Assembly: GCF_947494755.1 (NCBI RefSeq)
Contig: NZ_CANLVZ010000004.1
Location: 124,001 to 188,000, forward strand
Length of the DNA: 64,000 nucleotides
Direction: 5' to 3'
Origin: an uncultured Tateyamaria sp.
GTDB lineage: Bacteria; Pseudomonadota; Alphaproteobacteria; Rhodobacterales; Rhodobacteraceae
The position numbers and the translations under genes were made by a program. Shown piece after piece: positions 52,421 through 54,961 of this stretch. Numbering within the stretch: position 1 is the stretch's first letter; every line of letters begins with the position of its first letter. The notes under the pieces are model-generated. The model was not told the DNA's origin, made no database searches, and saw only the letters and a list, made by a program, of their open reading frames with translations.

Positions 52421-52449
52421 TTGACGCTCCTTTTGGGCGCGCATACTGT
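52421..52449 (+). promoter_or_regulatory. putative promoter of the ilv operon
   Basis: TTGACG (52421-52426) and TACTGT (52444-52449) with 17 bases between them match a housekeeping sigma promoter. Transcription would start near 52456, about 23 bases before the leader peptide at 52479 and 120 bases before ilvI. Confidence 0.55.
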
Positions 52450-52478
52450 CCGCTCACGCAACAAAAGGCCTTACGGCA

Positions 52479-52526
52479 ATGACATCTCTAGTCGTCATTA
52501 TTGGATACATACGCATGGGCCGGTAA
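52479..52526 (+). CDS. branched-chain amino acid leader peptide
   Basis: A 15-codon frame reads MTSLVVIIGYIRMGR, with consecutive Leu-Val-Val-Ile-Ile codons and a further Ile. AAGG lies about 11 bases before the ATG. It is placed between the ilv promoter and the terminator hairpin at 52553-52576, just as in attenuators where ribosome stalling at scarce Leu, Val or Ile codons allows read-through. The peptide itself probably has no other function. Confidence 0.78.
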   Translation: MTSLVVIIGYIRMGR

Positions 52527-52576
52527 CGGACATCCAGACCCGACCCCATGCGCCTCCGAAACCCGGAGGTTTTTTT
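52512..52576 (+). promoter_or_regulatory. attenuator of ilvI with terminator covering the ribosome binding site
   Basis: CGCATGGG (52512-52519, inside the leader peptide) pairs with CCCATGCG (52545-52552). Immediately after, CCTCCG (52553-52558) pairs with CGGAGG (52564-52569), followed by seven T: a terminator. The GGAGG of the terminator stem is also the ribosome binding site of ilvI (ATG 52577), so folding would block both transcription and translation. The antiterminator pairing is not obvious from inspection. Confidence 0.7.
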
Positions 52577-54367
52577 ATGCGAAAACGACAAACCGCAACA
52601 TCGGAGCACGCGGATATGACACGTCAAATGACCGGAGCGAAAATGGTGGTTCAAGCCCTGATAGATCAGGGTGTGGACACAGTATTCGGATATCCCGGGG
52701 GCGCTGTCCTACCGATTTACGATGAGGTGTTTCAGCAAAACTCGATCAAGCACATCCTTGTGCGCCACGAACAGGGCGCGGTCCATGCCGCCGAAGGTTA
52801 TGCGCGCGCGACGGGCAAGCCCGGCGTGTGCCTTGTGACCTCCGGCCCCGGTGCCACCAATGCGGTCACCGGCCTGACGGATGCCTTGCTGGATTCGATC
52901 CCGATCATCGTTCTGACGGGCCAGGTGCCCACCTTCATGATTGGCTCGGACGCCTTTCAAGAGGCCGACACCGTGGGCATCACCCGCCCCTGCACCAAGC
53001 ACAACTGGCTGGTGAAAGAGACCGACAAGCTGTCGGACGTGATCCACGAGGCCTTTCACGTGGCCACTTCGGGCCGTCCCGGACCCGTGCTGATCGACAT
53101 CCCCAAGGACGTGCAGTTCGCCACCGGCGGCTACAATGCGCCCAAACCCTCGACCTCGCATTACCAGCCGCAGGTCAAGGGCGACATGGAGGCGATCACC
53201 GAACTGGTCGCGGCACTCGAGACGGCCAAGCGGCCTGTATTCTATACCGGTGGCGGCGTGATCAACTCCGGCCCCGAAGCCAGCCAGTTGCTGCGCGAGC
53301 TTGTGTCCTCGACCGGGTTTCCGATCACCTCGACGCTGATGGGTCTTGGCTGTTACCCGGCCTCGGGCAAGCATTGGCTGGGGATGCTCGGCATGCACGG
53401 GCTTTACGAGGCCAACATGGCGATGCATGGCTGCGATCTGATGATCAACATCGGCGCGCGCTTTGACGACCGGATCACGGGGCGCATCGATGCCTTCAGC
53501 CCCAAGTCGAAAAAGGCCCATATCGACATCGACCCCTCCTCGATCAACAAGGTGATCAAGGCCGACATCCCGATTGTGGGCGATGTGGGCCACGTGCTCG
53601 AGGATATCCTCAAGGTTTGGAAATCGCGCGGGCGCAAGACCAACTCGGAGGCCGTCGCCAAATGGTGGGGCCAGATCGAAGAGTGGCGAAAGGTCGACTG
53701 CCTAAAATTCACCCAAGGCCCCAAAACCATCAAACCGCAGCACGCGCTGGCCCGGCTTGAGGCGCTGACCAAGGATCACGACCGCTATATCTGCACCGAA
53801 GTGGGCCAGCACCAGATGTGGGCGGCGCAATACCTCAACTTTGAAGATCCAAACCGCTGGATGACCTCGGGCGGTCTTGGTACGATGGGTTACGGCTTTC
53901 CCGCCTCCATCGGGGTGCAGATGGGGCATCCGGAGGCGCTCGTCATCAATGTCGCCGGTGAAGCATCTTGGCTGATGAACATGCAGGAACTTGGCACAGC
54001 GATGCAGTTCAACCTGCCCGTCAAACAGTTCATCCTGAATAACGAAAGGCTTGGCATGGTGCGCCAGTGGCAGGAATTGCTGCACGGTGAGCGGTATTCG
54101 CATTCCTGGTCCGAAAGCCTGCCCGATTTCGTAAAACTCGCCGAAGCGTTCGGGGCCAAGGGCATCCTCTGTTCGGACCCCGCCGATCTGGACGACGCGA
54201 TCATGGAGATGATCAATCACGATGGGCCCGTCCTGTTCGACTGTCTGGTCGAGAAGCACGAAAACTGCTTCCCCATGATACCGTCGGGCAAGGCGCATAA
54301 CGAAATGCTGCTTGGCGAGGCGGACACCCAAGGGGTGATCGACGCCAAAGGGTCGGTGCTGGTTTAA
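52577..54367 (+). CDS. ilvI: acetolactate synthase large subunit
   Basis: The enzyme condenses pyruvate with pyruvate or 2-oxobutyrate using thiamine diphosphate and FAD, the first common step of Val, Leu and Ile synthesis. The 596-aa product has FGYPGGAVLPIYDEV, the catalytic Glu of VRHEQGAVHAAEGYARATG, GPGATNAVTGL, and the C-terminal cofactor domain. There the usual GDG reads VAGEASWLMNM, a change at the metal-binding Asp. GGAGG at 52565-52569 decides the ATG at 52577. It is controlled by the leader-peptide attenuator and followed by ilvN. Confidence 0.96.
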   Translation: MRKRQTATSEHADMTRQMTGAKMVVQALIDQGVDTVFGYPGGAVLPIYDEVFQQNSIKHILVRHEQGAVHAAEGYARATGKPGVCLVTSGPGATNAVTGLTDALLDSIPIIVLTGQVPTFMIGSDAFQEADTVGITRPCTKHNWLVKETDKLSDVIHEAFHVATSGRPGPVLIDIPKDVQFATGGYNAPKPSTSHYQPQVKGDMEAITELVAALETAKRPVFYTGGGVINSGPEASQLLRELVSSTGFPITSTLMGLGCYPASGKHWLGMLGMHGLYEANMAMHGCDLMINIGARFDDRITGRIDAFSPKSKKAHIDIDPSSINKVIKADIPIVGDVGHVLEDILKVWKSRGRKTNSEAVAKWWGQIEEWRKVDCLKFTQGPKTIKPQHALARLEALTKDHDRYICTEVGQHQMWAAQYLNFEDPNRWMTSGGLGTMGYGFPASIGVQMGHPEALVINVAGEASWLMNMQELGTAMQFNLPVKQFILNNERLGMVRQWQELLHGERYSHSWSESLPDFVKLAEAFGAKGILCSDPADLDDAIMEMINHDGPVLFDCLVEKHENCFPMIPSGKAHNEMLLGEADTQGVIDAKGSVLV

Positions 54368-54400: not shown

Positions 54401-54961
54401 ATGTCTGCCCTAAAGCTAAAAAAAGGCTCCACCAGCCATTCCGCCTATAACCTGCGTCCCACCTTTTCGGACGTGATCGAAAAACATACGCTCGCGGTGC
54501 TGGTCGAAAACGAACCCGGTGTGCTGGCCCGTGTGATCGGGCTGTTTGCAGGCCGCGGCTATAACATCGAAAGCCTGACCGTGGCCGAGGTCGATCATCA
54601 AGGGCACCTCAGCCGCATCACCATTGTGACCACCGGCACGCCACAGGTCATCGAACAGATCAAGGCGCAACTGGGCCGCATCGTGTCCGTGCACGAAGTC
54701 CACGACCTGACCGTCGAGGGGCCATCGGTCGAGCGCGAATTGGCGATGTTCAAAGTGGCCGGTCAGGGCGACAAGCGGGTCGAGGCGCTGCGGCTTGCCG
54801 ATATTTTTCGCGCCAATGTGGTCGACAGCACGCTGGAGACGTTCATTTTCGAAATCACCGGTGCCCCCGAAAAGATCGACGCTTTTGCCGACCTCATGCG
54901 CCCGCTTGGATTGACCGAAGTGGCCCGGACCGGCGTTGCGGCGCTGTCGCGGGGCGACTAG
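54401..54961 (+). CDS. ilvN: acetolactate synthase small (regulatory) subunit
   Basis: The regulatory subunit activates the large subunit and confers valine feedback inhibition. The 186-aa product has an N-terminal ACT domain (about 25-100: LAVLVENEPGVLARVIGLFAGRGYNIESL) and a C-terminal ACT-like domain (about 110-180). AAGGA precedes the ATG, 33 bases after the ilvI stop. In some nomenclature it is ilvH. Confidence 0.95.
   Translation: MSALKLKKGSTSHSAYNLRPTFSDVIEKHTLAVLVENEPGVLARVIGLFAGRGYNIESLTVAEVDHQGHLSRITIVTTGTPQVIEQIKAQLGRIVSVHEVHDLTVEGPSVERELAMFKVAGQGDKRVEALRLADIFRANVVDSTLETFIFEITGAPEKIDAFADLMRPLGLTEVARTGVAALSRGD

Follow-up and report, generated by a model that had tools for sequence, protein, structure and literature searches.

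We analysed a 64,000-nucleotide stretch of DNA (the window) from a genome belonging to the Rhodobacteraceae, in which a short leader region precedes ilvI. The nearest named relatives of its IlvI protein come from an uncultured Tateyamaria (93%) and a Sulfitobacter MAG (92%). The features at this locus, all on the forward strand, are the following:

52421..52449, + strand: promoter TTGACG-N17-TACTGT, from the sequence and the pattern in related loci
52479..52526, + strand: leader ORF MTSLVVIIGYIRMGR, 15 codons, with control codons CTA GTC GTC ATT ATT at 52488-52502, from the sequence and the leaders of relatives
52512..52519, + strand: left arm of hairpin 1:2, CGCATGGG, within leader codons 12-14
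52545..52552, + strand: right arm of hairpin 1:2, CCCATGCG, whose last base, G52552, is common to the terminator stem
52552..52576, + strand: intrinsic terminator, GCCTCCG-AAACC-CGGAGGT and then T, from the sequence and the alignment
52603..52606, + strand: GGAG, Shine-Dalgarno of the conserved ilvI start, from the sequence and related loci
52616..54367, + strand: ilvI, acetolactate synthase 3 large subunit, from NCBIfam NF006581 (1126.8 bits, cut-off 974) and start alignment
54401..54961, + strand: ORF, probable ilvH small subunit

The promoter consists of TTGACG (52421-52426), a 17-base spacer and TACTGT (52444-52449). Taken alone it is weak, with 8 of 12 consensus matches when counted by hand, and a promoter scan did not list it. 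The pattern TTGAC-N16..18-NANNNT was found in the expected stretch of 113 of 139 related loci, versus 13 of 2780 mononucleotide shuffles. The leader reads ATG ACA TCT CTA GTC GTC ATT ATT GGA TAC ATA CGC ATG GGC CGG TAA, from the ATG at 52479 to the TAA ending at 52526, and among 2000 dinucleotide shuffles of positions 52421-52600 only 2 gave a short ORF whose Ile/Leu/Val run reached five. Hairpin 1:2 has 8 bp in the window. It is followed by the core arms of the terminator, CCTCCG (52553-52558) and CGGAGG (52564-52569), and by the T-run at 52570-52576. Folding of a 200-base RNA at the locus yielded a z-score of -2.45. A covariance model of the leader (R1, see below), which includes the window leader as one of its 139 training rows, had a single match in the window genome, at the leader (E 2.1e-22; runner-up E 0.42). 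An Rfam scan of the window at the gathering score detected no known riboswitch or T-box, a tRNA being the sole match. The promoter, the 15-codon frame with its Leu-Val-Val-Ile-Ile run, the 8-bp hairpin and the terminator thus lie where the first-pass annotation had placed them, and they exceed chance.

Conservation of the leader across Rhodobacteraceae

IlvI was present in all 149 of the Rhodobacteraceae genomes searched (one genome per genus). Upstream regions were taken at 149 loci (L001-L030 and L111-L229) from 148 genomes, one of which contributed two copies; genome G017 was left out, as its IlvI match had no start. One locus (L215) had no locatable protein start, leaving 148 regions. A terminator was placed in 140 of these 148 regions (149 taken) and none was found in the other eight. 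One duplicate was dropped, and R1 was built from the resulting 139 leader loci. A second set of 80 named ilvI loci partly overlaps the family set, so that counts over the combined 227 loci are non-independent.

The leader codons recur in relatives. Short ORFs with an Ile/Leu/Val run of at least three were found in 133 of the 148 upstream regions, versus 239 of 1480 dinucleotide shuffles. For runs of at least four, the counts were 120 of 148 versus 38 of 1480, and for runs of at least five, 96 of 148 versus 4 of 1480. R1 matched 136 of the 149 genomes (E 1e-4), in 134 of them at ilvI by coordinates, a figure that is partly circular because R1 was built from 139 of these same loci; genomes G004 and G008 were matched only at places other than ilvI. 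Judged by these searches, the putative ilvI leader attenuator is well conserved among marine roseobacters and related bacteria. Genome G024 carries two ilvI copies (L142 and L152), each preceded by a separate attenuator. At three Paracoccus ilvI loci (L087, L089 and L091), neither a branched-chain leader run nor a terminator or T-run was found in the 264 bases inspected, a possible loss of attenuation.

In 150 of the 227 loci the leader carries an R-M motif where the hairpin lies, and 130 of these 150 leaders are 15 residues long. The invariance of R-M is by construction, because the search anchor CGC/CGT-ATGG selects it. The control positions are mainly occupied by Leu, Ile and Val (position -4, for instance, is Val in 125 of the 150 leaders), and their spacing to the left arm of the hairpin is fixed among loci. 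Codon usage in the 150 leaders differs from that in 75 ilvI genes: GTA accounts for 51% of Val codons in leaders versus 3% in ilvI, CTA for 32% versus 2% of Leu codons, and the GGA codon fraction is 0.32 versus 0.05. In the window this bias concerns positions 52488-52505; here as in the relatives, ilvI itself scarcely uses these codons. Starvation-sensitive codon choice has been proposed for E. coli attenuators, and the codon bias of the leaders fits such a choice.

Both hairpins recur as well. A 1:2 stem of at least seven pairs was found in 132 of 139 loci, versus 42 of 139 shuffles under the same search, a control that is inflated by the relatedness of the loci. Divergent loci retain hairpin 1:2 with other letters, as in GCGCAGUCGC/GCGACUGCGC and GGUGCAUGGG/CCCAUGCACC. 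RNAalifold on the full 139-row alignment predicted four terminator pairs and did not predict hairpin 1:2, after which we counted the pairs of the named structure directly in the alignment. For the 14 named pairs of both stems, 94.2% of the cells were paired, versus 31.6-62.2% when the partners were slid, and 43 cells were changed on both sides, versus 9-30 in the slid controls. Compensatory changes in both stems, which had been put forward as a check on the attenuator, are borne out by the covariation score (0.155 versus 0.031-0.096); they are not borne out when one counts how many pairs changed on both sides, namely 9 of 14, within the slid-control range of 5-10. On this alignment, both stems covary.

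The candidate switch and the start of ilvI

The locus combines traits of branched-chain attenuators, namely a leader ORF rich in branched-chain codons, an intrinsic terminator before the first gene and a gene of the cognate pathway (NF006581). Leader-peptide attenuation, as originally proposed for this locus, is strongly supported by the leader runs, the recurrent 1:2 stem, the covariation, the rare codons and the R1 matches at ilvI. Together with the anatomy, the conservation and the fixed spacing, these observations make it very probable that ilvIH is controlled by a ribosome-mediated transcription attenuator, in which a stalled leader ribosome would let hairpin 1:2 form as the antiterminator. 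RNA polymerase would start near 52456, and a ribosome would translate the 15-codon leader. With charged Val, Leu and Ile tRNAs, the ribosome would reach the stop codon (52524-52526) and cover the left arm at 52512-52519, blocking hairpin 1:2, so that the terminator would end transcription near 52576. With uncharged tRNAs, it would stall at codons 4-8, upstream of the left arm, although at codon 8 it may already come into slight contact with the arm. Hairpin 1:2 would then form first and take the foot of the terminator stem, leading to read-through. As the leader contains Val, Ile and Leu codons and a stop signal, the cell can probably turn ilvI on when these amino acids are scarce.

Attenuators of the E. 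coli trp and ilv type comprise a leader peptide, control codons and a terminator. In comparison, the ilvI leader has two conserved hairpins and no separate protector hairpin was found. Neither such a hairpin nor a 2:3 antiterminator emerged from the alignment or from the further pairings that we tried, which showed two conserved helices only. This agrees with the first-pass annotation, which saw no clear 1:2/2:3/3:4 scheme of the classical kind. Hairpin 1:2 is the probable antiterminator. Its right arm reaches into the stem of the terminator in 121 of 139 loci, by 1-4 bases (mostly 2-3), and ends 3-6 positions short of the terminator in 16 of 138. Over 114 of the 121 overlapping loci (those with a stem of at least eight pairs), full formation of 1:2, itself at -22.7 kcal/mol, left a terminator with a mean energy of -6.7 rather than -14.8 kcal/mol. 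Terminator pairs formed with probability 0.98-1.0 when the left arm was blocked; when it was unblocked, averages over 114 loci were 0.68 for the basal pair and 0.77-0.96 for the upper ones.

In the window, the overlap is a single base, and formation of 1:2 weakens the terminator by little, to -9.3 instead of -11.3 kcal/mol, because the ninth 1:2 pair is an A with a C; the window is among 4 of 139 rows without the ninth G-C pair. At equilibrium with the arm free, its six upper terminator pairs keep probabilities of 0.99-1.0, and the basal pair alone falls, to 0.32-0.55. The predicted switch is therefore weaker on paper in the window than in the family: two-hairpin overlap describes the family well and this species less well.

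The one-base overlap in the window, and the lack of overlap in some divergent loci, would also suit an attenuator in which 1:2 is only a pause hairpin, keeping polymerase and ribosome in step, with termination prevented by some other structure or by the ribosome. We consider this possible but doubtful, since the alternative pairings that we tried equal their shuffles and a ribosome at the stop codon would, from the coordinates, be short of the terminator. One of these pairings, a GGA:UCC extension that would deepen the overlap, was seen in the fold of a truncated window RNA, and 63.5% of its alignment cells pair. It was rejected, since its frequency, 0.355, did not exceed the 0.402 obtained with shuffled flanks (0.077 with the GG replaced); no association was seen between the third base of the Gly codon and the terminator base opposite it (Fisher p 0.33). 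A pairing between the left arm and ATGCG downstream of the T-run likewise behaved like its shuffles and was rejected.

The preferred reading, attenuation with 1:2 as the antiterminator, acts on transcription. The first-pass annotation had further identified the right arm of the terminator as the ilvI ribosome binding site, so that a single fold, by hiding GGAGG (52565-52569), would act on transcription and translation alike. GGAGG is indeed followed, after seven bases, by an ATG at 52577 that is in frame with ilvI. However, relatives align at an ilvI start at 52616, 39 bases downstream of 52577, and this conserved start carries its own Shine-Dalgarno sequence. Among the 134 loci with a locatable start, a Shine-Dalgarno core lies 5-16 bases upstream of it in 126 (versus 673 of 2680 shuffles), and GGAG in 99 (versus 198 of 2680). 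GGAGG within the terminator is limited to 4 of 139 loci, the window among them. The ilvI frame is interrupted by a stop after the terminator and before the start in 57 of the 163 loci, out of 227, that matched a strict terminator pattern, which the window itself did not. A start at 52577 with a ribosome binding site in the terminator was thus rejected, and a switch of this dual kind is very unlikely.

An NTG is common near the end of the T-run, at 52577-52579 in the window and in relatives (60 ATG, 50 TTG, 24 GTG and 2 CTG among the 163 loci). These triplets are spread about evenly over the three frames (42, 44 and 50 of 136), so the NTG was rejected as a conserved ilvI start; it is perhaps part of the termination signal.

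Related RNAs in Rfam and before transporter genes

Branched-chain attenuation is a known kind of switch. For Caulobacter, attenuation of ilvBN/ilvIH is described in PMC4117421 (citing Tarleton, Malakooti and Ely 1994). Going by that description, the C. crescentus attenuator resembles that of the window in occurring in an alphaproteobacterium before the same gene, with tandem Ile/Val leader codons and a rho-independent terminator. A cis-regulatory element of Sinorhizobium meliloti ilvIH, in a related order, is listed in PMC2573895 (citing Vitreschak et al. 2004) and is by its description likewise an attenuator before ilvIH. The uORFC-8-2 motif before cysS in Rhodobacterales, as described in PMC8632094, also combines ribosome-mediated attenuation, tandem control codons and a terminator; unlike the ilvI leader, it has cysteine codons and precedes another gene. 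Among the open-licence papers surveyed, mainly by title and the opening of the abstract, none described the present element, whether in Rhodobacterales or upstream of an MFS gene.

The closest Rfam family is RF02502 (Atu_C8), a Rhizobiales sRNA, which has a leader ORF, a GCGCAUGGG/CCCAUGCGC hairpin and a terminator in the same order as the window, and differs in the gap between hairpin and terminator and in being filed as an sRNA. RF02502 matched the window over all 122 positions with 18.8 bits, under the cut-off of 50. It matched the ilvI leader of Mesorhizobium sp. L-8-3 with 100.9 bits (L110, 1298-1419) and a leader before an MFS transporter gene with 98.8 bits (L230, 1501-1620). The other 12 of the 14 loci scanned had no match at the gathering score; six are MFS loci and six belong to ilvI in other Hyphomicrobiales. 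The full-length sub-threshold match, and the description of S. meliloti rnTrpL, an attenuator product, as a dual-function sRNA (PMC10117765), might suggest that the terminated window leader is a small RNA gene acting in trans; this is highly improbable, as the reading frame and the position before ilvI are conserved and RF02502 itself matches an ilvI leader, although the leader RNA might act in trans in addition to attenuating. The RF02502 members at L110 and L230 look like leader attenuators.

We queried 289 genomes of the class with R1 and obtained 30 with E ≤ 0.01, four of them in the family of the window. The six next best matches (L241-L246, from six families, E 4.5e-9 to 1.3e-18) precede not ilvI but a Bcr/CflA-type MFS transporter gene, as does the match in genome G255 (L230/L247, E 9.4e-5). 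Of the other class-wide matches scoring under some 30 bits, most resemble plain terminators when judged by eye. A search of the family of G149 covered that genome alone. RF02502 matched 6 of 36 genomes in the family of G255, all six times before a Bcr/CflA-type transporter. Among 190 genomes of the class it matched three, one of them above the cut-off; a weak one (L231) lies before ilvI. RF02502 thus includes leaders of both kinds, at least one from ilvI loci and six from MFS loci. In Rhodobacteraceae, seven R1 places lie away from ilvI, four of them before the transporter (L272, L273, L274 and L276); the other three (L275, L277 and L278) are not before an MFS transporter.

All 16 loci called MFS encode a homologue, 48-63% identical to that of L274 (L274 itself aside). 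NCBIfam TIGR00710 was above its cut-off in five of the six transporter proteins scanned, with the sixth (L246) just under. The MFS-linked loci (L241-L246, L230, L267-L274 and L276) come from eight alphaproteobacterial families. Their leaders are mostly Val-rich, some of them lacking the branched-chain run, with Ile/Leu/Val runs of 1 to 6 in those read, lengths that err high as the start with the longest run was preferred. The control codons are thus partly lost in the MFS leaders. A transporter homologue (E 1e-70) was found in 136 of 149 Rhodobacteraceae genomes; the R1 element was present at 3 of the best 30 transporter loci examined and before the transporter gene in 4 of 149 genomes. Most Rhodobacteraceae transporter homologues are therefore without the element.

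These distributions allow a more speculative reading, which we regard as unlikely: a single alphaproteobacterial attenuator family, partly filed as Atu_C8, may have split, with the ilvI copies sensing branched-chain amino acids and the MFS copies, which keep the two-hairpin geometry and have partly lost the control codons, reading slowed translation, for example by inhibitors, to make an exporter. The ilvI attenuator family is anatomically clear and occurs in most of the 149 Rhodobacteraceae genera, with the window falling below the Rfam threshold, and an Rfam sRNA family is indicated to contain leader attenuators. As the same RNA lies before an efflux-type transporter, it becomes testable whether amino acid attenuators may have been reused as sensors of translation stress.
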